Below are positions 7,082 through 24,580 of a stretch of DNA of 30,143 nt, piece after piece. This DNA is from a virus: IMG/VR virus record IMGVR_UViG_3300049433_000053, positions 1 to 30,143 of that record, one strand, 5' to 3'. How positions within the stretch are numbered: position 1 is the first letter of the stretch; the number at the start of each line of letters is the position of its first letter. A model generated the notes under the pieces. That model had not been told where the DNA came from. It worked only from the letters and a program-made list of their open reading frames with translations, and did not search any database. A program made the translations under genes and the position numbers.

Positions 7082-7714
7082 ATCAAGGCAATAGAAACTC
7101 GATATGCCGGATGCCGGTTCAGGTCCCGGCTGGAGGCACGATGGGCGGTGTTTTTCGATACGCTCGGTGTCGAATGGGAATACGAATCTCAGGGATTCGA
7201 AATTCCTGAGCGTATATTTCGAAAGCCCACTCGGTATCTCCCGGATTTCTGGCTCCCGACAATGAATGTCTATGCGGAAGTAAAAGGAACTCTGGACCAG
7301 GATTCCACTGAACGTCTCCTCAATTCGGCGGCTGTCCTGTCGTCTCCCGAAGGGGGCTGCGGAGGAGGTCATGACCTGGTGGTTCTAGGCCCGATACCCA
7401 AGGCTGAACCAGCATTTCAAGCAGTATACGGAGCAACCGATGTCCCCAGTCTTCTCCATATGCACAAAGGGGATCTCTTCGTGTCCCCCTGGAGGCAGAT
7501 CAACTACGGTAGCAATTCATGCCCGGCTTACTCGATAGAGGCATTCCGCGTAGCCAATGATGCGGAAGGCTGGGAGCCAGGATACGGTTCAGAGTGGGGA
7601 CCTGTAATTCTCAAAGGATTTACTGCGGGAACGCATCGTGTGAGTTCGGGTTCGTTCATCCGGGGATACGGGGCCGCACGGTCGGCGAGGTTCGAACATG
7701 GAGAGAGGGGCTGA
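7073..7714 (+). CDS. PD-(D/E)XK nuclease-like protein, copy 2 (AT-richer paralogue)
   Basis: 213 residues from GTG 7073, which is placed correctly behind GGAGAGAGGGG. An ATG at 7055 would start inside that ribosome site. It has the same core as copy 1: conserved Glu in R-S-R-L-E-A-R-W-A-V-F-F, PD in R-Y-L-P-D-F-W-L, and ExK in Y-A-E-V-K-G. The middle of the gene is distinctly AT-richer than all neighbours, with many A/T third bases (for example the run at 7180-7290). Its two ends keep the phage's own composition through the direct repeats. This suggests that the interior came from elsewhere and recombined in through the conserved ends. The C-terminal half differs from copy 1, so specificity may differ. 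Confidence 0.85.
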   Translation: MTEIKAIETRYAGCRFRSRLEARWAVFFDTLGVEWEYESQGFEIPERIFRKPTRYLPDFWLPTMNVYAEVKGTLDQDSTERLLNSAAVLSSPEGGCGGGHDLVVLGPIPKAEPAFQAVYGATDVPSLLHMHKGDLFVSPWRQINYGSNSCPAYSIEAFRVANDAEGWEPGYGSEWGPVILKGFTAGTHRVSSGSFIRGYGAARSARFEHGERG

Positions 7715-7724
7715 AGTGACGGAG
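7672..7724 (+). repeat. 53-bp direct repeat, copy 2 (nuclease cassette boundary)
   Basis: Second copy of the repeat described at 7029-7081. It carries the end of the copy-2 nuclease gene, the ribosome site and the GTG start of the primase-polymerase gene. Homologous exchange between the two copies would delete or add one complete nuclease gene without disturbing the neighbouring starts and stops. Confidence 0.9.
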
Positions 7725-10700
7725 CGGGAGCACGACAGGGCGCCGGAGGAATCCGGCGCTGATGTGTCTGGGGAGACGAATGGCGCGGTAGCGGCACGCG
7801 GGGTGATGGCGGAACTGGAGGAGAGCGAAGAGCGGGGCATGCGGGAGGAGCCTGCGAAGGTGACGCCTCCCCGGCCACCGGCCGACGTCTCCCCGGTGCA
7901 CCACTCCGAGCTGCTCGGGTCGGTCATCAGTGAAGAGCAGATGGCGGCACGCGGGTACCGCACGCTGTACGGATCGGAGGAGGACCAAGCAGGACTCAAG
8001 GAGATCCGCATCCCGAGGTGGGCATGGCGGGACGACACCGCGTTTCCCGGGCTGCTCATCCCGATGTACCGGGTGACCGGGGAGCGCATCGGGTACCAGT
8101 GGAAGCCCGCCACCCCGCAGGAGGCGCCGGGCGGCAAGCGGGAGAAGTACGCGAGCCAGAGCGGCACCCCCAACCGGCTGGACGTACCCCCGTCGTGCTC
8201 GGACGCGGTCCGGGACCCGAGCGTGCCCCTGTGGGTGACCGAGGGGGTGAAGAAGGCGGATGCGCTGTGCTCCAAGGGGCGCGCGGTCATCACCCTCACC
8301 GGGGTCTTCAACTGGCGGAGCAAGCTGGGCACGCTCGGGGACTGGGAAGACATCCCGCTCCGGGGCCGCACCGTCGTGGTCTGCTTTGATGCGGATGCCC
8401 GCGACAAGCGGAACGTGCTGCTCGCCATGCGGCGCCTCGGGATGTGGCTGGAGTCGAAAGGCTGCGCCGACGTCCGGTACCTGATCGTCCCGGCGGAGGT
8501 CAACGAAGTCCAGGTCAAGGGCGTCGATGACTACTTCGCTGCCGGTGGCACGATGGAAGACCTCGGGGCTGCCGCCATGCGGGAGCTGCCCGCCGACGGA
8601 GCACAGGATGCCGCGTTCAGCGATGCGGTGCTGGCGGACACGGTCTGCCGGGAGGAGCTGGACGGCCGGTTCTGCTGGGCTTCAGGTCTCGGGTGGATGA
8701 CGTGGACCGGGAAGATATGGGAGGGCGCGACCGACGCCACCGTGACGGAAGCGGTACGGCTGTGGGCGCTCGAAGCCTTCAACCGGGTGCTCGACCGGCA
8801 GCGGCAGGACCACAACCGGGACATGCGGAGTCAGATGGACGGCTGGCGCGGCGTGCTGTCGGCCGGTCGGCTCGGCGCACTGGTGCGCCTCGCGCGGGGC
8901 GTGCTGGAGTGCAAGCCGGACGACTTCGACAACGACCCCGACATGTTCAACTGCCCGAACGGCATCCTGGACCTGCGGACCGGCGAACTCCAGCCGCACG
9001 ACCCCGACCAGTTCATGACGAAGATCGCCGGGGCAGACTACGTCAAGGGGGCCACGCACCCGGACTGGGAGACGGCTCTGCTCGCGCTCCCGGAGGAAGT
9101 ACGCTCCTGGTTCCAGCTCCGGGCCGGACAGGCCATCACCGGTCACATGACCCCCGACGATCTGGCGATCATCTGCCAGGGCGGTGGAGCCAACGGGAAG
9201 AGCACAATCTCGGATGCGCTGGCGGAGGTGGCCGGGAAGTACCACGTGGTGGTGAGCGACCGGGCGATGCTCGGGGGCGCGAGCGACAACCACCCGACCG
9301 AGATGATGGACTTCATGGGCGCCCGGTACGCGGTGCTGGAGGAGACGCCGGAGAGCCGTCGGCTGGACACCAACCGGCTGAAGAAGCTCACCGGTACGAG
9401 GGAGATCACCGCCCGGCGCATCCGGCAGGACAGCGTGACGTTCGAAGCGACGCACAGCCTGTTCGTGAACAGCAACTACCGGCCGGTGGTGGACGAGACC
9501 GACCACGGCACATGGCGGCGCCTCGCGCTGGTGAGGTTCCCCTTCACCTTCCGCAAGAGCCAGGAAGAGGTCAGAGGGCCCCAGGACCGCCTAGGAGACC
9601 CGACCCTGCGCCAGAGGGTGAAGACCGACCCGCAAGTGCGCGAGGCGGTGCTTACGTGGATGGTGGGGGGTGCTCAGCGGTGGTACGACCTGTCGATGGT
9701 GATGCCCGAGCCTCCGCAGGCGGTGGCGGACGACACCAAGGCATGGCGGCTGGAGAGCGACCCCATCCTGCACTTCATCGAAGACAGCCTGATGTTCGAT
9801 CTCGACCGGCACGTGGGAGCGACCGAGCTGCGCGAGCGGTTCAACGGATCCCTGCGGGAGCGCGGCGGCAAGGAGTGGGGCGAGAAGACGTTCGCAGCCC
9901 GGTTCGGCGGTCACGACCTGACGGCTCAGAACAACGTCGAACGGCGCAAGGTGAAGCGTTCGGCCGCCCTCTCCTCGCTCCGCCCGGAGACCGTTCCGGC
10001 GGGTTCCTACTACGCCTGGCTTGGAGTCCGGTTCCAGGCGCCCGAGGAGGGATTCAGCGGTCCAGATAGCGAGACGACCCAGAATCCGTTCGGCGACGGC
10101 CCATGTAACTCTCCGGAATCGACCCCAGGTCAATCACCGGAGGCTCCCTCCGGTTCCGTCAGTTCCGTCACGTTCTTTAACGAGAATTCTCCCCATACAC
10201 GAGGGGTTATAGATCGTGACGGAACTGACGGAACCGGAGAGATTCCTCCGCTTACAGACCATGATCAAAGTGATGGGGAAACCATGATCGAAGACGCGGT
10301 GGACTTCATGTCCGCCGACCCCTTTGCCGAACCGGCCGCCCCTGTGGCGGAGGAGCTGTCCCCCGTGCCCGCAGAGGTGCCCGTGGAGTCGGGTGCGGAC
10401 CCCTCCCGTCCGAACGCTCTGACGGGCTTCGACGCATCCGGCGAAGTCGGGTTCGACCTGGAGACCGCCGACGCCAGCACGATGTTCACGTACGGGCCCG
10501 GGTTCGTCCGGATCGGCGGGCTCATCAACGAGCGGGGGGAGACGGCCACCGGTTCCGACATCAAGGCCCTGGTGGACAAGCTCAACGCCGCCGACGTGGT
10601 GTACGGCCACAACATTCTCGGATTCGACGGACTGGCCCTGGCCTACTGGCACGGTCTCGACTGGGAAGCCTTCTGCGCCAAGGCGGTCGACACCGACCCC

Positions 10701-12161
10701 CTGTCCCGGCAGGCCCACCCCCCGCGCTCCCGTGGAAAATCCTCCATCGACGAGTACGACCTGAACCACGTTGCCGCCCGTTACGGGCTGGAAGGCAAGA
10801 CCGACGACATCAAACGGCTGAAGACCAAGCACGGCGGGTACGACAAGATCCCGCTGGACGACCCCGAGTACCACGGTTACCTGGTGGGCGACGTGAGGGC
10901 TTCCCGCCACGTCCGGAAGATCCTGCCGGAGACCGACTACACCACCCGTGAGCACAAGATCGCCGCCATGATGGGCCGGATGACCCTCAACGGTTTCAAG
11001 GTGGACCGGGAGCTGCTGGACACCCGGTACCGGGAGGGGCAGGAGCGCAAGAAGGCGGCTGAGCAGGAGCTGTCCGATGCCCATGGGCTCCCGCTCGGCA
11101 GGATGGTCAATCGGGGCCGGGGTGCCGCCAAGCACCAGGTCTTCGAACCGGCCGCCTCCCCCCTGGCTACCGGCGAGGGGATCGAGTGGCTGAAGAACCT
11201 CTGGGAGCAGTACGGCGTCAACAAGCCTCCCCGCACCGAAGGTGGTCGGCTGTCGACGAAGGCGGAGCTGCTGAAGCTGGTCGCCGAACACCCCAAGTGC
11301 CCACCCGAGCTGTCTCACGTGCTCAACCTGATGGGGATCATCACCACCACCCGGACGGTCTACGCCACCACCCTGACCTACCTCGCCGCCGACGGCCGGG
11401 TGCACCCGAAGGTGTCGATGCGGCAGGCGTCCGGCCGGGCCAGCGTCACCGAACCGGGCATGACGGTCTACGGCAAGCACAATGGACGCCACCACGAACG
11501 GGAGATCTTCGTACCGGACGCCGGTGAGGTACTGATCACCTGCGACGCCAGCCAGGTCGACATGCGGGCGATCGCCGGACACTGCCAGGATCCGAACTAC
11601 ATGGCGATGTTCGCCGCAGGTCGTGACGCCCACTCCGAGATCGCTCTTCAGGTGTTCGGCTCGGCCGACTTCCGGCAGAACGCCAAGGCGATCGGTCACG
11701 GCTGGAACTACGGCCTGGGTGCACGGAAGATGATCGAAGACGGTCACGACCCCGAGCTGGTGCGCACCTTCATGAGTGGGATGGCGGAACGCTTCCCCCG
11801 GCTGATCGAGTGGCGGGAGGAGATCCGGGCACAGGGTGGCCGGGGCGAACTGCTCGACAACGGGTTCGGCCGGATGATGCGCTGTGACCCGCACTTCGCC
11901 TACACGGTGGCCACCGCCCTCATGGGTCAGGGCGGCGCACGGGATCTCGTGTTCGACGCCATGCTGAGGCTCCCGCAGAGCTACTGGAAGTATCTGCGCA
12001 CCTTCGTGCACGACGAGATCGTGATGAGCGTTCCGGCGGAGCAGGCGGATGAGGTCATGGCCCGGGTGAAGGACGCGTTCACCACGGTGTGGAGGAACGT
12101 GCCGATCCTCGCCGACACCACCGGCCCGGCCGCCAACTGGGGGGAGGCGAGTGTCAAGTGA
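7716..12161 (+). CDS. fused primase-helicase and family A DNA polymerase
   Basis: The GTG at 7716 (GGAGAGAGGGG upstream) opens an uninterrupted frame of 1481 codons. Residues about 70-290 match the DUF3854 primase-associated TOPRIM-like domain, including the P-L-W-V-T-E-G-V-K-K-A-D and V-V-V-C-F-D-A-D-A motifs. Residues about 300-770 form a D5/SF3 helicase with Walker A GGGANGKST near 488-496. After a low-GC3 linker of about 110 residues comes a polymerase I-like part with an intact 3'-5' exonuclease: exo I F-D-L-E-T, exo II N-I-L-G-F-D-G, exo III Y-L-V-G-D-V. The polymerase motifs follow: A T-C-D-A-S-Q-V-D, B R-Q-N-A-K-A-I-G-H-G-W-N-Y-G, C F-V-H-D-E-I-V. A possible internal start is ATG 10284 behind GATGGGGAAACC, so the polymerase may also be made alone. 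Since no stop separates the halves, a fusion product is expected unless the sequence carries an error. Confidence 0.9.
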   Translation: MTEREHDRAPEESGADVSGETNGAVAARGVMAELEESEERGMREEPAKVTPPRPPADVSPVHHSELLGSVISEEQMAARGYRTLYGSEEDQAGLKEIRIPRWAWRDDTAFPGLLIPMYRVTGERIGYQWKPATPQEAPGGKREKYASQSGTPNRLDVPPSCSDAVRDPSVPLWVTEGVKKADALCSKGRAVITLTGVFNWRSKLGTLGDWEDIPLRGRTVVVCFDADARDKRNVLLAMRRLGMWLESKGCADVRYLIVPAEVNEVQVKGVDDYFAAGGTMEDLGAAAMRELPADGAQDAAFSDAVLADTVCREELDGRFCWASGLGWMTWTGKIWEGATDATVTEAVRLWALEAFNRVLDRQRQDHNRDMRSQMDGWRGVLSAGRLGALVRLARGVLECKPDDFDNDPDMFNCPNGILDLRTGELQPHDPDQFMTKIAGADYVKGATHPDWETALLALPEEVRSWFQLRAGQAITGHMTPDDLAIICQGGGANGKSTISDALAEVAGKYHVVVSDRAMLGGASDNHPTEMMDFMGARYAVLEETPESRRLDTNRLKKLTGTREITARRIRQDSVTFEATHSLFVNSNYRPVVDETDHGTWRRLALVRFPFTFRKSQEEVRGPQDRLGDPTLRQRVKTDPQVREAVLTWMVGGAQRWYDLSMVMPEPPQAVADDTKAWRLESDPILHFIEDSLMFDLDRHVGATELRERFNGSLRERGGKEWGEKTFAARFGGHDLTAQNNVERRKVKRSAALSSLRPETVPAGSYYAWLGVRFQAPEEGFSGPDSETTQNPFGDGPCNSPESTPGQSPEAPSGSVSSVTFFNENSPHTRGVIDRDGTDGTGEIPPLTDHDQSDGETMIEDAVDFMSADPFAEPAAPVAEELSPVPAEVPVESGADPSRPNALTGFDASGEVGFDLETADASTMFTYGPGFVRIGGLINERGETATGSDIKALVDKLNAADVVYGHNILGFDGLALAYWHGLDWEAFCAKAVDTDPLSRQAHPPRSRGKSSIDEYDLNHVAARYGLEGKTDDIKRLKTKHGGYDKIPLDDPEYHGYLVGDVRASRHVRKILPETDYTTREHKIAAMMGRMTLNGFKVDRELLDTRYREGQERKKAAEQELSDAHGLPLGRMVNRGRGAAKHQVFEPAASPLATGEGIEWLKNLWEQYGVNKPPRTEGGRLSTKAELLKLVAEHPKCPPELSHVLNLMGIITTTRTVYATTLTYLAADGRVHPKVSMRQASGRASVTEPGMTVYGKHNGRHHEREIFVPDAGEVLITCDASQVDMRAIAGHCQDPNYMAMFAAGRDAHSEIALQVFGSADFRQNAKAIGHGWNYGLGARKMIEDGHDPELVRTFMSGMAERFPRLIEWREEIRAQGGRGELLDNGFGRMMRCDPHFAYTVATALMGQGGARDLVFDAMLRLPQSYWKYLRTFVHDEIVMSVPAEQADEVMARVKDAFTTVWRNVPILADTTGPAANWGEASVK
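10148..10239 (+). repeat. 25-bp perfect inverted repeat with tandem 9-mers in the primase-polymerase linker (possible origin or operator)
   Basis: The arms 10148-10172 and 10215-10239 are perfect reverse complements. Each arm contains two head-to-tail copies of the 9-mer GTTCCGTCA (10153-10161 and 10162-10170; inverted copies at 10217-10225 and 10226-10234). The 42-base spacer is AT-rich. It holds the palindrome GAGAATTCTC (10182-10191), a CCCC/GGGG mini-hairpin and a TATAGA hexamer at 10208-10213. Iteron-like 9-mers around an AT-rich core fit a replication origin or an operator/promoter for the polymerase part. A terminator is unlikely, as there is no T-run. Confidence 0.85.
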
Positions 12162-15203: not shown

Positions 15204-16036
15204 AGATCCTCGTTGCAGGAGCGGGTATCGCCGGTAGCTGTGCGGCCCACGTACTGCGGGACGCCGGTCACGACGTCGTGCTCGCCGACCCGGCGCCGGA
15301 CACGGCCGCCAGCCGGTGCGCGTTCGCGCTGACCCGGATCGCCTGGTGGTCGGGAGCTCCGAAGATCCGGGTGGTCCGGTCGCTGAACTGGTACCAGGCA
15401 CGTGGCCACATCGTCACGTCGTCCGCCACCGTGCACGACGTCCGCCGACAACGCACGACGATCCAGGGCGACCACTACCTGATCAGTCCCACCGGCCCGC
15501 TCGTCCCGCGCGATCTCGCCGCCTCGGTCGGCTGGTGGGATGAGCGGGCTGACGGTGTGCTCGTGGATTTTCGGCACTGGATACGCGAGCAGTACGACGC
15601 GCTGGTGGTCGCCGCCGGGCCCGCGTCGGCCGGACTGCTGTCGTGGCCTGCCGACGGGTGCAGCTACGGCGGCATCCACACCGCACCGGGCAACCTGCTC
15701 ACCGACGGCGGTCAGCTCGCACTGCTCCGGCGCACCGACCGGCTGAGCTACACGGCTGCCTTCGTCGCCGGGGAGACGCGCATCGGAGCCTCGCGCTGCT
15801 CCTCACCGGAGCAGGCACACCGCGTCGCCGACGGCATCCGGGACCGGCTGCTGTCCGAAGGTCTCGTCAAGGGAGCCGACTGGGCGTACCGGTCCGGCAC
15901 CCGCTACGCCACGGCATCCCCCGGCGCTGTACGGATCTCGCGCCGGGTATGGTCGCTCACCGGACTGGCACGGTCCGGGTACGCACTCGCTCCGGCCGCC
16001 GCGCTGGACATCGAAAAGGAGATCAGAGAGCTGTGA
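15200..16036 (+). CDS. FAD-dependent oxidoreductase/lyase of the amino acid oxidase fold
   Basis: 278 residues from ATG 15200. The N-terminus is a Rossmann fold with a G-A-G-I-A-G dinucleotide motif at residues 7-12 and an acidic residue closing the second strand (VVLADPAP). A second FAD-binding region appears as D-A-L-V-V-A-A-G-P near 130-140, and the C-terminus has the VWSLTGLARSGYALAPAAAL pattern of DAO-type flavoproteins. It is short for this family. In phage thymidine hypermodification, flavin-dependent lyases trim an amino acid attached to the base. This one sits between the transferase and the kinase, so that role is likely. A free amino acid oxidase is the main alternative. Confidence 0.8.
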   Translation: MKILVAGAGIAGSCAAHVLRDAGHDVVLADPAPDTAASRCAFALTRIAWWSGAPKIRVVRSLNWYQARGHIVTSSATVHDVRRQRTTIQGDHYLISPTGPLVPRDLAASVGWWDERADGVLVDFRHWIREQYDALVVAAGPASAGLLSWPADGCSYGGIHTAPGNLLTDGGQLALLRRTDRLSYTAAFVAGETRIGASRCSSPEQAHRVADGIRDRLLSEGLVKGADWAYRSGTRYATASPGAVRISRRVWSLTGLARSGYALAPAAALDIEKEIREL

Positions 16037-16608
16037 CCAAGCACCTCGTATACCTGGTGGGCCCGCCCGGAGTCGGCAAGTCGAGCGTGATGGCTGAGCT
16101 GACAGCCGGGCTGCACCGGGTCCCGTACAAAGACGGTCAGCTCAAGTACGACGGGCTGTACAAGACGCACGCGCCCCCACAGACGGCCACCCCGGTCGGT
16201 GTCGAGCTGGGGGCGCGCCGCGACTCGTTCAGTGGCACCGATGCACTCGGCATGGCGGTGCAGCCGCACGCCGTGGAATGGATCGGCCGGGCGACCTGTC
16301 CCCTGGTGCTCGGGGAAGGTGCGCGCCTGGGTAATGCCGGGTTCCTGCACGCCGCCCGGTCCGCTGGATACACGCTGCACCTCGTGCATCTGTCCGCCGA
16401 TCCGCACACCCTCGCTGCCCGGCGCTTCCAGCGTGGCAGCAAGCAGTCGGAGGTGTGGATCCGGGGAGCGGAGACGCGCGCACAGCGCATCATGGAGCGG
16501 ATGGAGCTGGACGCGATCCTGCATTACCTCCACACGGACCATTTCACGTCGGAGGAGATCGCTATCACGCTGGTTGACCTCATCCCATCCCTGGAGGTAC
16601 TGCGGTGA
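16033..16608 (+). CDS. P-loop kinase acting on hydroxymethyl-pyrimidine DNA (5-hmdU DNA kinase-like)
   Basis: 191 residues from GTG 16033 (GTGA overlap). The Walker A motif G-P-P-G-V-G-K-S lies at residues 10-17. It is followed by a basic, Tyr-containing stretch and then the G-T-D-A-L-G-M-A-V-Q-P-H motif that I associate with the DNA-nucleotide kinases of hypermodification clusters. A later L-G-E-G-A-R-L-G-N-A-G-F strand and Arg-rich lid (A-A-R-R-F-Q-R-G) complete the fold. The predicted reaction is ATP-dependent phosphorylation of the hydroxymethyl group on a base in DNA, creating the leaving group for the transferase. A small nucleoside kinase is an alternative, but the gene neighbours argue for DNA as substrate. 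Confidence 0.8.
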   Translation: MTKHLVYLVGPPGVGKSSVMAELTAGLHRVPYKDGQLKYDGLYKTHAPPQTATPVGVELGARRDSFSGTDALGMAVQPHAVEWIGRATCPLVLGEGARLGNAGFLHAARSAGYTLHLVHLSADPHTLAARRFQRGSKQSEVWIRGAETRAQRIMERMELDAILHYLHTDHFTSEEIAITLVDLIPSLEVLR

Positions 16609-17477
16609 TCGAGATGAGGCTGCGCCGCCGGTCGGCCCCGGCGGAGCTGGAGGCGAAGCAGGGGAAGATCCTCGGTCCCTCCGACTACAACCTGCTGCTC
16701 ACTGGTCCGGCGTACGTACGGATGCCGGACAACCGGCCGCTCTGCGTGTACCTGCCGGGCGTGCTCACCGGCGAACTCGACAAGCCGGGCATCTACGAGA
16801 TCCTGTCCGGTATGCGCGCGATCTCGAAGAACCGGGGGCTGGCGTCCGGGTCCCCGCGCCTGCGCACCCGGCATCCCGGCCGGACGTACGCCCGTGAGGT
16901 GGCGTCCACGATCGTCGGGGCGGTCGACCCGATCGGTCAGACGCGCTACTGCCGCCTCACCGCCTGGACCGGTCGCAACCTCCCGCAGTGGGAACAGCTC
17001 ATCCCTCTCCTCCAGGCCGTAGCCGAGAAGCAGCGGCAGTATGTCAACGATCGGGCGATGGCTCAACAGGCTGTCGCCGATTCCGCTGACCCGGCGTGGG
17101 TCGTACCGGGTACGCCGTTCTCCACGATCACCGTCAACAACACATATCCGACCGGCGTGCACACCGACAAGGGCGATCTGGACGCCGGATTCTCCGCCAT
17201 CGCTGTGATCCGGCGCGGCTCGTACACGGGCGGACACCTCGTGTTCCCGGAGTACCGCGTGGCGGTCGACATGTACCACGGCGATCTTCTGCTGATGGAC
17301 GCGCACCAGTGGCACGGCAACACCGCGCTGGTGTGCGCCTGTGGCCGGGAACCGAACGGTGCATGCTCGGAGTGCGGTACGGAAAGGATCTCGATCGTGA
17401 GCTATTTCAGGTCCAAAGTCGCCGACTGCGGCACCCCTGACCAGGAGATCCGCCGGGCGAACGCCAACCGTATCTAG
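16605..17477 (+). CDS. TET/JBP-family Fe(II)/2-oxoglutarate dioxygenase
   Basis: 290 residues from GTG 16605 (overlapping the kinase stop). The double-stranded beta-helix motif is clear: N-N-T-Y-P-T-G-V-H-T-D-K-G-D places the metal ligands His186 and Asp188. The G-G-H-L-V-F-P-E-Y strand and D-A-H-Q-W-H-G-N-T supply the distal His237, and R261 in R-I-S-I-V-S-Y-F is positioned to bind 2-oxoglutarate. The H-T-D...H-G-N pattern is that of TET/JBP DNA base hydroxylases. Between the distal His and the Arg is a four-Cys insert (C-A-C then C-S-E-C), probably a zinc site. The likely substrate is thymine or 5-methylcytosine in the phage DNA. Which one cannot be told from sequence, and no cytosine methyltransferase is visible in this window. 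Confidence 0.85.
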   Translation: MIEMRLRRRSAPAELEAKQGKILGPSDYNLLLTGPAYVRMPDNRPLCVYLPGVLTGELDKPGIYEILSGMRAISKNRGLASGSPRLRTRHPGRTYAREVASTIVGAVDPIGQTRYCRLTAWTGRNLPQWEQLIPLLQAVAEKQRQYVNDRAMAQQAVADSADPAWVVPGTPFSTITVNNTYPTGVHTDKGDLDAGFSAIAVIRRGSYTGGHLVFPEYRVAVDMYHGDLLLMDAHQWHGNTALVCACGREPNGACSECGTERISIVSYFRSKVADCGTPDQEIRRANANRI

Positions 17478-20184: not shown

Positions 20185-21243
20185 GTGGAAAGCAGCTTTG
20201 AAGGTAAACGGATTCTGCTAACGGGTGCTGCGGGGTTTGTAGGCAGCCACGTGCTGCGCCACCTGCTGAAACGGACTAAGGCCGAAATAGTATGTCCGGT
20301 TACGTTCCGCCACAAAGGCTTCCCAGCCCGGATCATCAGCGCGGCAGAGGGGATCGAGATCGACGGCGGCGCACCGGCACGCGTCACCGTGATGATGATG
20401 GATCTCACAGCGCCCGCAGACCCGATCTCGATCAGCCGCATGGGCCACATCGACTACATCCTCAACGTGGCCAGTGAGTCGCACGTGGACCGCTCGATCA
20501 CCGACCCGGTTCCGTTCGTGATGAACAACACGGCGCTGATCCTGAATACCCTGGAGCTGGCCCGCGTGCTCCGGCCGGATGTCTTCCTCCAGATGTCTAC
20601 GGATGAGGTCTACGGCCCGGCCCCCATGGGCTACAGCCATCGGGAGTGGGACCCGATCTGCCCCTCCAACCCGTACAGCGCGAGCAAGGCCGCGCAGGAG
20701 GCCATCGCTATCTCGTACTGGCGCACGTACGGCGTCCCGGTCGTGATCACCAACACCATGAACATCATCGGCGAGATGCAAGACGTCGAAAAGATGGTGC
20801 CGAAGACGATCAAGCTGCTCACCAACGGGGAGCCGGTGCCGGTGCACTGCGATACCGATGGCTCACCGGGGAGCCGGTTCTACCTGCACGCGCGCAACCT
20901 CGCCGACGCTTGGCTGTTCCTGCTCCGGCAGGAAGGCAAGCTATGGGACCTGAACATGCACGTGGACGGCTCCGGCCGCCCGTCCCGCTTCAACATCGTC
21001 GGTGAACAGGAAGTCGACAACATCACCCTCGTGAAGCAGGTAGCGAGGATCATGGGCGTGATGCCCCGGTACGAGAAGCAGAGTTTTCACGCGTCCCGGC
21101 CGGGCCACGATCTCCGGTACGCGCTGGACGGGTCCCGGATGGCCAAGCTCGGGGTCAACGGCTGGCACCCGCCGTTCCCGTTCGATTCGTCCCTGGAGAC
21201 GACCGTGCGGTGGACGCTCGACCACCCGGAGTGGCTTCAGTGA
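20185..21243 (+). CDS. NAD-dependent epimerase/dehydratase (extended SDR, RmlB-like)
   Basis: 352 residues from GTG 20185, GGAGGAAG upstream. The Rossmann motif T-G-A-A-G-F-V-G-S-H contains GxxGxxG (Gly14, 17, 20). The active site has M-S-T-D-E-V-Y-G and the Y-S-A-S-K-A-A-Q motif (YxxxK), the signature of dTDP-glucose 4,6-dehydratases and related nucleotide-sugar enzymes. It would act on a nucleotide-linked sugar. In a phage this could alter the host cell surface or supply a modified sugar, and no glycosyltransferase is in the window to say which. It overlaps the next gene by GTGA. Confidence 0.9.
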   Translation: MESSFEGKRILLTGAAGFVGSHVLRHLLKRTKAEIVCPVTFRHKGFPARIISAAEGIEIDGGAPARVTVMMMDLTAPADPISISRMGHIDYILNVASESHVDRSITDPVPFVMNNTALILNTLELARVLRPDVFLQMSTDEVYGPAPMGYSHREWDPICPSNPYSASKAAQEAIAISYWRTYGVPVVITNTMNIIGEMQDVEKMVPKTIKLLTNGEPVPVHCDTDGSPGSRFYLHARNLADAWLFLLRQEGKLWDLNMHVDGSGRPSRFNIVGEQEVDNITLVKQVARIMGVMPRYEKQSFHASRPGHDLRYALDGSRMAKLGVNGWHPPFPFDSSLETTVRWTLDHPEWLQ

Positions 21244-21425
21244 AGCGGCCCGTGTGCTCGTGGTGCGGGGTCTTCCTGAGCTGGCGGTCCCGGCTGCGGA
21301 TCGAGATGGTGCGCTGCCACATGTGCGCGTCCTGCCACCGGCACGGCTGCTGTGAAGCGGGGATCTACCTCCAGAACGGCGGACCGGAGTTCCGGCGCCT
21401 GTCCCGGTCCGGGCAGAGCGAGTAG
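21240..21425 (+). CDS. small zinc-ribbon protein
   Basis: 61 residues from GTG 21240, overlapping the epimerase stop (GTGA). Cysteines occur as CSWC, then CHMCASC, then C-C (SCHRHGCCEAG), a pattern for one or two zinc sites. It is translationally coupled to the epimerase. TerL starts 17 bases after its stop. Function unknown. Confidence 0.7.
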   Translation: MKRPVCSWCGVFLSWRSRLRIEMVRCHMCASCHRHGCCEAGIYLQNGGPEFRRLSRSGQSE

Positions 21426-21442
21426 CGAGAGACACTGATCAC

Positions 21443-23677
21443 ATGACCACCGATGCGCAGCAGATCGCCAAGCAGGCTGCCGATCTGCTGCGCATGTACG
21501 GTGAGTCGGCCGGACGCTGGGCACCGCGTCCGCACCAGATCCCTCCCCCGTCCGGGTTCTACGGCTGGCTGCTGATGGCGGGGCGCGGCGCCGGTAAGAC
21601 GGACGCCTGCGCTAAGTACGTCGTGGACCACGTCAAGGGTCCGGCCTGCCTCAAGGGCGACACCCCTCACTGGATCGGGATCATCGCCCCCACCCTCGGC
21701 GATGCAGCCACCTCGTGCTTCTCCGGTCCGTCCGGGATCAAGGCGCACGACCCGTCCGCCAAGATGGTGAACACGATCGGCGGCACGATCATCCGGTGGC
21801 CGAACGGCAGTGAGGCGAAGCTGTTCGGCGCCAACACCGAAGAGGACACCCAGCGTCTCCGGTCCGGCGGTAACCGTTGTGTTGTTGAGGGCACGATGGT
21901 GCGTACTGCACGAGGGGAAGTTCCCATTGAGGAAGTAGTCCCCGGGGACAGGGTGTGGACTCGGAACGGCCTGCGTAAGGTGCTCAAGGTCTGGGATAAC
22001 GGGATCAAGGAAGTACGCCGATACGATCACGAAGCTGGATCGACTTGGATGACTCCGGATCACCAGGTGTGGACTGATCGGGGGTGGGAACAAGCCTCGC
22101 TTGTCTCGACAAGCGATACAGTGTTTACATGGCCGACTTCATCGAATATGACGGTGCTCGCTGGTATCCGAACAAGCGCGATCCCTACTACCGCAACAGT
22201 CGTAGAGGACTACTGCATCGATGGATGTATCTGCGCGAAGTCGGACCGATACCTGGCAGAGCGCAAGTCCACCACCGGAACCACGACAAGCGTGACAACC
22301 GTGTGGAAAACTTCGTGCTTCTCTCCCCCGGAGACCATTGGCACGAACACGGTACGGAGCGAGGCGACGACTGGCACAGCAAAGGTGGTCGTGCGACGTG
22401 GGCCAGCGCGGAGTACCGCGATTTCACCTGTGAGCGGTGCGGCGCATCGTTCCGTTCCCGAGGTACGACAGGGGCCCGGTACTGCTCCCCCCATTGTCGT
22501 GAGGCGTCGGCTCCTTCACGGGCACGGGAAGAACGGGTGTGTTGCGTGTGCGGCGCACGGTTCGAATCCCAGAAACGGTCTTCGACACGTACCTGTTCAC
22601 GGCGGTGCACTTCGGTCGTCGCATACGAGTCGCGTCGCAAGGGTGTATGACCTCACGGTCGAGCATGATCACGAGTTCTTCGCTGACGGGCTGCTCGTTT
22701 CCAATTGCCTGCAATGGCTGGAGGAGATCGCCGCGTGGCGGTATCTCGACTACGCCTGGAACCAGATGCGGTTCGGCCTGCGCGTCGGCCCGCATCCGCA
22801 CTGGATCGGCTCCACCACCCCCAAGCCCCGGCAGCTCATCAAACGGCTGGACCGGGGCGATATCGCCAACGTCGTCATCACCCGCGCGACCATGTACGAC
22901 AACCCCCACCTGCCCGCCGACATCCGGGAAGCGCTGGAGGAGGAGTACGGCGGTACCCAGCTCGGCCGTCAGGAACTGCTCGGCCAGCTCATTGATGAGG
23001 ATGAGCAAGCTCTCTGGAACCACCGCACGATCGATGCGGCCCGCGTCCCCAAGAAAGACCTGCCGGAGTTCGGCCGGATCTCCGTCGGGGTGGACCCGTC
23101 CGGCGGTGCCGGTGAGCAGGGCATCGTGGTCGCCGCCCGGTCCAAGCTCATCCTGCCGCCGACCGTGATGCCCGAGGTGGAGGGGATCGAGATCCCGGGG
23201 TCCGACCGGCCGAACAAGCACGGGTACGTGCTGGACGACCGCACCGTCCACCTGTCCCCCGACGGATGGGGCAAGGCCGCGATCCTGGCCGCTGTGGACT
23301 GGGAGGCTGACGAGATCTTCGTGGAGACGAACTACGGCGGGGCCATGTGCGTGTCGACGCTCCGCACGGCGGCCGAAATCAAGGGAGTCAACATCCCGAT
23401 CAAGGTCGTCACCGCCACCCGGGGCAAGAAGGTTCGGGCGGAGCCGGTCAGCGCGCTCACGAGCCAGGGCCGCTGGCACCACGCCGGTACCTTCGAAGCG
23501 CTGGAGGACCAGATGTGCACGTGGCACGATGACCTCGGCTGGAGCCCCGACCGGCTGGACGCGGCGGTGTGGAACGGGTGGGGGCTGCGCCTCGCGCACC
23601 TGCTGTCCGGCGGTCAGGGCTCGATCGGCGGGGGCGCCATGTCCAAGAAGATCACGCCAGGACGGGGTGCCTACTGA
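21443..23677 (+). CDS. terminase large subunit (TerL) interrupted by an intein
   Basis: 744 codons from ATG 21443. N-extein: Walker A (A-G-R-G-A-G-K-T) near residues 48-54. The intein spans residues 146-421. The C-extein begins C-L-Q-W-L-E-E-I-A-A-W, where the acidic pair is the Walker B/catalytic Glu of the packaging ATPase. The nuclease domain follows: V-G-V-D-P-S-G-G (first metal aspartate), F-V-E-T-N-Y-G-G (glutamate) and D-R-L-D-A-A-V-W (last aspartate). Splicing would give a 468-residue TerL, normal length for this family. It translocates and cuts phage DNA at the portal. Its ribosome site is weak (GAGAGA), perhaps compensated by coupling to the preceding gene. Confidence 0.95.
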   Translation: MTTDAQQIAKQAADLLRMYGESAGRWAPRPHQIPPPSGFYGWLLMAGRGAGKTDACAKYVVDHVKGPACLKGDTPHWIGIIAPTLGDAATSCFSGPSGIKAHDPSAKMVNTIGGTIIRWPNGSEAKLFGANTEEDTQRLRSGGNRCVVEGTMVRTARGEVPIEEVVPGDRVWTRNGLRKVLKVWDNGIKEVRRYDHEAGSTWMTPDHQVWTDRGWEQASLVSTSDTVFTWPTSSNMTVLAGIRTSAIPTTATVVEDYCIDGCICAKSDRYLAERKSTTGTTTSVTTVWKTSCFSPPETIGTNTVRSEATTGTAKVVVRRGPARSTAISPVSGAAHRSVPEVRQGPGTAPPIVVRRRLLHGHGKNGCVACAAHGSNPRNGLRHVPVHGGALRSSHTSRVARVYDLTVEHDHEFFADGLLVSNCLQWLEEIAAWRYLDYAWNQMRFGLRVGPHPHWIGSTTPKPRQLIKRLDRGDIANVVITRATMYDNPHLPADIREALEEEYGGTQLGRQELLGQLIDEDEQALWNHRTIDAARVPKKDLPEFGRISVGVDPSGGAGEQGIVVAARSKLILPPTVMPEVEGIEIPGSDRPNKHGYVLDDRTVHLSPDGWGKAAILAAVDWEADEIFVETNYGGAMCVSTLRTAAEIKGVNIPIKVVTATRGKKVRAEPVSALTSQGRWHHAGTFEALEDQMCTWHDDLGWSPDRLDAAVWNGWGLRLAHLLSGGQGSIGGGAMSKKITPGRGAY
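22098..22115 (+). repeat. 8-bp hairpin before the nested HNH gene
   Basis: CGCTTGTC (22098-22105) and GACAAGCG (22108-22115) form a perfect hairpin with a 2-base loop that ends 13 bases before the HNH start codon. It lies inside the intein coding region. It may control HNH translation or mark the edge of the inserted gene. Confidence 0.6.
22129..22650 (+). CDS. HNH homing endonuclease nested out of frame inside the TerL intein
   Basis: 173 residues from ATG 22129, in a frame one base behind the intein frame. HNH core: P-I-P-G-R-A-Q-V-H-H-R-N-H-D-K-R-D-N at residues 41-57 and P-G-D-H-W-H near 67-72, the His-Asn-His geometry. Two zinc fingers follow (C-E-R-C ... C-S-P-H-C, then C-C-V-C ... C-S-R-R-C), probable DNA-binding modules of mobile endonucleases. 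The stop (22648-22650) lies inside the codons for the first residues of the intein's C-terminal block. There is no clear ribosome site; a hairpin precedes it. It probably drives homing of the intein. Confidence 0.85.
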   Translation: MADFIEYDGARWYPNKRDPYYRNSRRGLLHRWMYLREVGPIPGRAQVHHRNHDKRDNRVENFVLLSPGDHWHEHGTERGDDWHSKGGRATWASAEYRDFTCERCGASFRSRGTTGARYCSPHCREASAPSRAREERVCCVCGARFESQKRSSTRTCSRRCTSVVAYESRRKGV

Positions 23678-23736
23678 TGCGCTTTCAGCGGGGTATCGTC
23701 TTTCCGTGAGTCAACCGAGCTAAAGAGAGGCATCCC

Positions 23737-24096
23737 GTGAAGATATTCGGCAGAGAGCTGGCCGTGTGGCTGGCCACCGTCGCCGCTGTGGAACAGGTGG
23801 TGACCGCGTACGGGTTCGACGTGAACGGCCACGTGCAGGGCATCGTCACCGCCGTGATCGTGTTCGTGTTCGGCGTGTACACCGCCGTCCGTGTCGGCGA
23901 TGGCGTGATCGCCATGGCCACGGGTGTCGCCACCGCGCTCTTCTCGCTGTTCGCCGCGTTCAACCTGGACTGGACCGCACACACCCAGTCGTTCTGGATC
24001 GCCGCCATCACCGCCGTGCTCGGGTTCTTCGTGCGGACCCAGGTGGTCGCTCCGGTCCCCCCGGCTGTATCGCCGCCCGGCAAGCTGGTCGTCTGA
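23737..24096 (+). CDS. four-span membrane protein, holin-like
   Basis: 119 residues from GTG 23737, GAGAGG upstream. Four hydrophobic segments are visible: around residues 8-25 (LAVWLATVAAVEQVVTAY), 31-50, 58-78 and 88-103, with a Pro-rich tail. The N-terminus MKIFGRE is a recurring start for Streptomyces phage membrane proteins that are often labelled holin. A role in timed membrane opening is plausible. It sits between TerL and the portal, an unusual but seen location. The 50-base gap before it has no clear promoter. Confidence 0.7.
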   Translation: MKIFGRELAVWLATVAAVEQVVTAYGFDVNGHVQGIVTAVIVFVFGVYTAVRVGDGVIAMATGVATALFSLFAAFNLDWTAHTQSFWIAAITAVLGFFVRTQVVAPVPPAVSPPGKLVV

Positions 24097-24111
24097 CCCC
24101 TGCTCGATCAT

Positions 24112-24138
24112 GCGCCCGGCGGGAGATCCGCCGGGCGC
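24112..24138 (+). terminator. GC-rich hairpin after the holin-like gene
   Basis: An 11-bp perfect stem, GCGCCCGGCGG (24112-24122) with CCGCCGGGCGC (24128-24138), and a 5-base loop. There is no T-run, so it may reduce rather than stop transcription or stabilise an mRNA end. Confidence 0.55.
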
Positions 24139-24166
24139 TCGAACTGAAACGGAACAGGATCTAGAT

Positions 24167-24580
24167 ATGCCGACCTGGCTGCTCGTCACCCTCATGATGC
24201 TCGCCACCTACCGGATCACCCGGCTCGTGGTCAAGGACGACTTCCCGCCGGTGCTGTGGGTGCGTGACCGACTGTGCGGCGGTTGGCGTCCGCTCACGAC
24301 CAAGGAGATCGCTTCCCTGAAGTACACCGGGGAGCAGGGTGACGCCCGGGTGGACGTCCGCACCGACGAAGACGGGGTGCGCTGCCGGTACATCTACCGC
24401 GCCGGGTGGGTGCCCGACTGGCTGGCCGATCTCCTGTCCTGCCCGTGGTGCGCGTCCGGCTGGATCGCCCTCATCCTCACCCTCGCTGTCGCCCTCACCG
24501 TCGGTGTCCCGGCGCCGGTGCTCGTCTGGCCCGCCGTGTGGGCTGCCGGGTCCCTGCTCGCCGCCCGTGACTGGGCATGA
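24167..24580 (+). CDS. DUF1360-family membrane protein
   Basis: 137 residues from ATG 24167. The N-terminal T-Y-R-I-T-R-L-V-V-K-D motif and a later S-C-P-W-C-A-S-G-W are the hallmarks of DUF1360. Two to three hydrophobic spans: near residues 3-14, 98-115 (ALILTLAVALTVGVPAPV) and 118-130. Function unknown; sometimes found near lysis genes. It ends in an ATGA with a frame that leads into the next gene. Confidence 0.8.
   Translation: MPTWLLVTLMMLATYRITRLVVKDDFPPVLWVRDRLCGGWRPLTTKEIASLKYTGEQGDARVDVRTDEDGVRCRYIYRAGWVPDWLADLLSCPWCASGWIALILTLAVALTVGVPAPVLVWPAVWAAGSLLAARDWA

Follow-up and report, generated by a model that had tools for sequence, protein, structure and literature searches.

Can an intein hold its endonuclease gene in a reading frame other than its own and still function as an intein? 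This question is raised by a gene for the large terminase, TerL, in a stretch of viral DNA of 30,143 nucleotides (positions 1 to 30,143 of IMG/VR record IMGVR_UViG_3300049433_000053), referred to here in its whole length as the window. A preliminary description of the window had noticed intein blocks in the TerL frame surrounding an HNH gene in another frame. The present analysis indicates that the locus probably comprises a cis-splicing TerL intein and a separately translated HNH gene in the -1 frame, whose product mobilises the intein; splicing, HNH translation, and homing are all inferred. The preliminary description was essentially right but was based on one case, and it missed both the recurrence of the arrangement and its fully split relatives.

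The intein in the TerL frame

The host gene occupies positions 21443-23677 of the plus strand, on which all features described here are located, as a single open frame of 744 codons. Pfam matches to Terminase_6N (E=3e-11) and Terminase_6C (E=3e-9) identify the two exteins flanking the intein, which is inserted in the ATPase part of the protein at the site GGNR|C. An alignment of 36 loci delimits an intein of 276 residues at 21878-22705, from Cys1 (TGT, 21878-21880) to Asn276 (AAT, 22703-22705), followed by a Cys; residues G13, I17, T28, G31, T59, H62, L273, and N276 are invariant in this alignment. The N-terminal splicing half (21878-22138) contains blocks A and B, including T59-x-x-H62, and matches Hint_2 (E=6e-7) in the TerL frame. 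The C-terminal half (22598-22705) contains blocks F and G, RVYDLTVEHDHEFF...LLVSN, and matches TIGR01443 intein_Cterm (E=2.7e-6) in the same frame. The +1 Cys of the C-extein (22706-22708) is evident in the sequence, and its codon is retained in alleles lacking the intein; a +1 Cys acts as a nucleophile required for splicing. The penultimate residue of the intein is Ser, instead of the common His.

All features expected of a cis-splicing intein, namely blocks A, B, F, and G in the host frame, C1, TxxH, a terminal Asn, and a +1 Cys, are present. A split intein would have IntN and IntC on separate ORFs, a layout not found in the window, where the single ORF 21443-23677 includes both. A contiguous cis-splicing intein in TerL is the likely interpretation, although splicing itself is inferred from sequence alone and there are no expression data.

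Structure prediction agreed with the assignment of both splicing halves. In the AF2 model of the host-frame intein, mean pLDDT over 10-residue segments was 94-98 for residues 1-80, 76 for residues 81-90, and 86-98 for residues 241-276, with values of only 37-55 for the linker formed by residues 91-240. High confidence thus covers residues 1-88 and 241-276, and the model predicts a HINT domain interrupted by a disordered linker. The best Foldseek match of the model was the Mtu RecA mini-intein (E=1.3e-7), as expected for a HINT fold. The linker is the host-frame reading of the HNH DNA (22148-22597); it is free of stops and, as judged by its identity to the related locus L003, is not conserved as a protein.

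Group I introns often carry HNH ORFs in other frames, and a self-splicing RNA intron with such an ORF has therefore also to be considered. This alternative can be discarded with near certainty: no Rfam match was found in positions 20500-24500 even at E=1, the HINT halves are in frame, and an intron would need no open host frame.

The HNH gene in the -1 frame

The DNA between blocks B and F contains, at 22129-22650, a gene resembling those of HNH homing endonucleases, which encodes 173 amino acids (HNH_3, E=2e-12) and has homologues up to 76% identical. It begins at the third base of a host codon and is thus in the -1 frame. Its ATG (22129-22131) is embedded in the host codons ACA-TGG (Thr-Trp), and its TGA (22648-22650) in TAT-GAC, the Tyr-Asp of block F. 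The HNH_3 catalytic core, around QVHHRNHDKRDNRVENF, was located by Pfam at 22213-22326 (residues 44-81 of the ORF 22084-22650), and residues H47, H48, N56, N60, and H69 (numbered without the Met) are invariant. It is followed at 22429-22608 by two C-x2-C zinc-binding modules, recognised by conservation of their cysteines 100/103/118/122 and 137/140/155/159 (also without the Met), which are invariant or nearly so; the protein thereby shows the combination of HNH motif and zinc-binding modules expected of an HNH homing endonuclease. AF2 predicted a folded protein (mean pLDDT 88.9), for which the best PDB match was I-HmuI (1U3E), a weak one (E=0.1, probability 0.89).

The main claims of the preliminary description about this layout were confirmed. 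The intein at 21878-22705 with blocks A, B, F, and G in the TerL frame held in its coordinates and its Hint_2 and intein_Cterm matches, as did the clean -1 HNH with two zinc fingers at 22129-22650 and the position of the HNH stop at the start of block F, the TGA lying within the Tyr-Asp of that block. The stretch between blocks B and F, described as being of low complexity in the TerL frame, corresponds to 150 host-frame residues predicted to be disordered (pLDDT about 55 or less).

Recurrence of the arrangement

A nucleotide search of annotated phages found nothing near, and protein searches were therefore used; a scan of genome contigs with the N half found only distant inteins. All fetched loci were searched with HMMs of the HNH and of the N and C halves, distinct HNH genes were counted, and a locus was termed nested when its HNH lay between both intein halves inside one unbroken host ORF. 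The first set contained 72 nested genes at -1, 2 at +1, and none in frame, along with 7 whose intein halves were on separate ORFs, 21 without an intein, and 2 with a C half only. A second set, fetched later as a replication and searched with the same HMMs, contained 51 at -1, 7 at +1, and none in frame, together with 4 split, 9 free, and 1 with an N half only. Both sets provide 132 distinct nested loci, 123 at -1 and 9 at +1; the HNH shares the intein frame in none of them, nor in the window, where it is at -1. Loci with both intein halves were unbroken in 132 cases and broken (TerL+IntN / HNH / IntC) in 11.

The nested loci span 30-69% GC and include sequenced phages. The layout occurs in Tetrasphaera phage TJE1 (HQ225832), Acinetobacter phage Highwayman (OZ038341), and Rhodobacteraceae phage LS06-2018-MD07 (OP947163), in the records of which terL is the sole annotation at the nested locus; phage TerL annotations can therefore conceal an HNH gene. 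Nested genes are not copies of one case, since 66 genes of the first set form 50 clusters below 50% HNH identity. Pfam searches of ten host ORFs identified terminase families in six, only intein or homing-endonuclease matches in three, and a weak NlpC/P60 match in one, and the flanking sequences suggest three main insertion sites: GGN|CLxWLEE, as in the window, the Walker-B-like W|CDEL, and one near the TerL C-terminus.

The preliminary description had itself named the finding that would refute it, a one-base sequencing error on each side of the HNH gene, and this remains the sole support for the view that sequencing or assembly errors mask an ordinary in-frame intein-endonuclease. Such a paired error is excluded by the close relatives L003/L004, L005, L012, L015, and L092, which have the same offset and the same HNH start position, and by the same frame relation in more than 100 further loci. 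With the offset shared by more than 120 distinct loci, including TJE1 and Highwayman and ranging from 30 to 69% GC, frame errors of any kind are virtually ruled out. The frame-nested HNH intein is thus a recurrent and probably functional arrangement rather than a sequencing slip.

Several variants of the layout were also observed. The minority of nested HNH genes at +1 includes L217, L222, L225, L230, L233, L236, L243, and L060, the last with an open host frame against 6.4 stops expected. In L099 a frame-nested HNH intein resides in a host ORF with the weak NlpC/P60 match and no terminase match. The host ORFs of L042 and L046, besides their out-of-frame HNH intein, match a LAGLIDADG endonuclease in the host frame.

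Selection on both reading frames

An open host frame might be an accident of high GC content, the intein frame being irrelevant. In favour of this reading, the host frame across the window HNH (61% GC) stays open in 43% of synonymous shuffles, and openness in the window alone is therefore not significant. At the level of the class the result was different: 67 nested loci had no host-frame stops against 106 expected from synonymous shuffles, and 51 nested loci of the replication set had none against 88 expected, whereas free-standing HNH genes had 118 observed against 115 expected, and 56 against 59 in the second set. Because an unbroken ORF defines a nested locus, the absence of stops follows in part from the choice of cases, and these counts have to be weighed together with the 132 unbroken and 11 broken loci. 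Nested members of low GC content (33-45%) also keep an open host frame, with P down to 0.001 or less. A further signature is found at the start codon, where an A following the ATG would create a host-frame TGA: this base occurs in 0 of 147 nested -1 genes and in 19 of 52 free genes (second set, 0 of 88 and 10 of 27).

Codon positions revealed which frame is under selection in each segment. Between the window and L003, identity across the HNH DNA is 76% in the HNH frame and 49% in the host frame. Substitutions at host codon positions 1, 2, and 3 numbered 72, 56, and 184 in the N-intein, 127, 317, and 137 in the HNH part, where host position 2 is HNH position 3, and 2, 3, and 38 in the C-intein. 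Up to the HNH start selection thus acts on the TerL frame, then on the HNH frame, and from block F onwards on the TerL frame again. From this switch of the most variable codon position it follows that the HNH and the splicing halves are conserved and the linker is merely kept free of stops.

These sequence statistics show that selection on TerL prevents stops in the host frame, and that selection on the nuclease preserves the HNH frame. The GC accident is all but eliminated by the low-GC members and by the strong host-frame selection on both splicing halves. The claim that one DNA stretch is open in two frames consequently held, with conservation that is significant for the class and not for the window alone. 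A reading of the HNH as a fossil gene was rejected together with the sequencing-error, GC-accident, and RNA-intron readings on the basis of the shuffles, identities, Rfam search, and substitution positions.

Inferred translation of the HNH

Translation signals were counted in 44 clusters whose HNH start could be recognised. A Shine-Dalgarno-like core of at least four bases at proper spacing precedes 20 of the 44 starts, against 6-10% at controls (Fisher 4e-9), and upstream of the start the HNH frame closes within 33 nt in 33 clusters and within 0-3 nt in 6 of the 44. Because of this enrichment and of the upstream closure, internal initiation is favoured over frameshifting as the likely mode of expression; HNH translation is inferred, with no data on the HNH protein.

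The competing explanation is that -1 programmed ribosomal frameshifting produces a TerL-N/IntN-HNH fusion. The nested frame is mostly -1, no Shine-Dalgarno motif is present upstream of the window ATG at 22129, and in L003 and a few other loci the HNH frame extends far upstream without a stop, all of which would agree with frameshifting. Against it stand the closure of the HNH frame shortly upstream in most clusters, the strong enrichment of Shine-Dalgarno motifs at HNH starts, and the existence of the +1 group, which make it very improbable, although slippery motifs were not systematically searched. Absence of a Shine-Dalgarno motif has likewise been described for the HNH of ShiLan (PMC11855218).

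A perfect hairpin (CGCTTGT-CTCG-ACAAGCG, 22098-22115) ends 13 nt before the HNH ATG of the window; it is not obviously conserved in L003 or L005.

Mobility and origin of the HNH gene

A survey of relatives for TerL genes without the intein or without the HNH had been proposed, and both were found. The empty TerL alleles L172 and L173, from viral contigs, have 88% extein identity and a continuous LRSGGNR|CLQWLEELAAW, the host sequence being exactly rejoined at GGNR|C as expected of intein-less homologues. Presence and absence concern a unit bounded by the ends of the intein, not by those of the HNH. L175 represents a related TerL with a mini-intein lacking the HNH. In the extein tree the window TerL nests among empty alleles, apart from other intein carriers (99/98 support), and the HNH tree tracks the intein insertion site, requiring 5 changes against 15.5 in shuffles; this link between HNH type and site might also reflect shared descent with TerL. 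In L006 the HNH core was lost by a deletion of whole codons, leaving an intein of 624 nt, compared with 834 in L005 and L012, with the intein frame kept, as would be predicted if a homing enzyme degenerates once fixation is reached. Empty alleles, site tracking, and L006 fit homing, which is itself inferred, and cleavage of the intein-less allele by the HNH has only the indirect support of site-specific HNH clades and patchy presence.

The HNH could instead be a hitch-hiker in a harmless intein loop and not the mobiliser of the intein. This reading draws on the free homologues beside terL and on the mixture of nested, split, and free forms in the HNH tree. It is considered unlikely, since HNH clades track the intein insertion site, presence in TerL is patchy with empty alleles, and the mobile unit is bounded by the intein ends.

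According to the preferred explanation, a homing HNH, a ribosome on terL would read the HNH DNA in the host frame and produce the disordered linker, the two HINT halves would then fold together, excise the intein, and restore TerL, and a second initiation at the internal ATG would yield a free HNH protein. This protein would cut intein-less terL at or near the insertion site, and repair would copy the intein and its gene into the break. The earlier statements that the intein still splices and that the nuclease must be translated separately draw support from the conservation, from the switch of selection between frames, from the empty alleles, and from the predicted structures, and they remain inferences.

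As to origin, a free-standing HNH gene may have entered the loop of a mini-intein out of frame, mostly at -1. An invasion of this kind, also proposed in the preliminary description, is supported by L175, by free homologues beside terL, and by the mixed HNH tree. Free-standing HNH homologues adjoin terminase genes in PAE1, SN1, FBPa53, EauM-23, and BP10, and all three forms coexist, intermixed, within one HNH family, where well supported branches force at least 4 changes of the nested state; the nested gene of Highwayman pairs with the free gene of BP10 with modest support. In free genes, the reading that corresponds to -1 nesting has 118 stops against 351 in the other frame, about a third. We infer that the -1 excess arose because that reading has the fewest stops, and that in-frame cases are lacking because the free gene's own stop would truncate TerL.

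Apparent natural split inteins were observed in L163 (Lactobacillus CL2), L171 (Brochothrix BL3), L170 (Vibrio 1.245.O), L036, and L051, in which IntN at the TerL end is followed by the HNH ORF and by a small ORF that encodes IntC and the final residues of TerL; the HNH of BL3 is truncated. Split forms could stem from nested ones by loss of the open host frame, or they could have arisen separately.

A bolder reading would see in frame-nested HNH inteins a class that is widespread and that marks an intermediate step in the evolution of inteins. If it were true, only a nuclease gene landing out of frame would be tolerated in a mini-intein loop, and a host frame that subsequently acquired stops would turn the element into a split intein with a free-standing nuclease between its halves. 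We advance this reading tentatively, the balance of evidence falling slightly short of it.

Relation to known systems

The closest published case is the ShiLan domain, an HNH with zinc fingers encoded in the third frame (Arsenault, Gosselin and Gogarten, 2025; PMC11855218); an out-of-frame HNH insertion has also been published for the Pacc40 methylase, with no splicing domain identified there. ShiLan shares with the window the -1 relation (its start is insertion base 18, host codon position 3), a host frame kept open by an insertion without stops, and a patchy distribution. According to its authors, however, the ShiLan insertion has no splicing domain and stays in the methylase, whereas the window HNH is surrounded by a complete HINT domain.

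Canonical large inteins, such as PI-SceI and the mycobacteriophage TerL inteins (PMC5050341), likewise have an endonuclease between blocks B and F of two HINT halves, insertion at functional TerL sites, and empty alleles. Their endonuclease is in frame, while that of the window is in another frame and hence, by inference, a separate polypeptide. Split inteins and fractured genes whose halves are separated by a free-standing endonuclease gene were reportedly described by Dassa et al. (2009); they share with the window a nuclease gene between IntN and IntC, but their halves are separate, and in the window splicing of one unbroken ORF would occur in cis. The free-standing HNH_3 genes of the five phages listed above encode homologous HNH proteins with zinc ribbons beside terminase genes, but they lie outside any intein and their other frames are unconstrained. 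I-HmuI, also encoded by a nuclease ORF independent of the host frame, is carried by a group I intron without a HINT domain, unlike the window, which has no intron RNA match.

Out-of-frame HNH insertions are thus already known, as are in-frame endonucleases in inteins and separate nucleases in split inteins; an out-of-frame nuclease within a complete intein is possibly new. No description of it was found in the searchable literature; the search missed a preprint on non-canonical intein architecture in actinobacteriophages (bioRxiv 10.1101/2025.01.02.630785), and an earlier description is therefore not excluded.

The frame-nested intein represents an architecture between the full-length and the split intein, with DNA that is doubly constrained. 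As nested, split, free, decayed (L006), and empty states all exist, the origin of split inteins and the acquisition of endonucleases become testable. The class also supplies many natural long overlapping genes on the same strand, with a clear reason for both frames being open.

Other features of the window

Elsewhere in the window, an ORF of 1487 amino acids (7698-12161) contains, in this order, DUF3854, D5_N, DUF5906, and DNA polymerase A domains, and constitutes a primase/helicase/polymerase fusion. At 15643-17477 a P-loop nucleotide kinase adjoins a Tet/JBP dioxygenase gene, a pair that may point to hypermodification of DNA bases.
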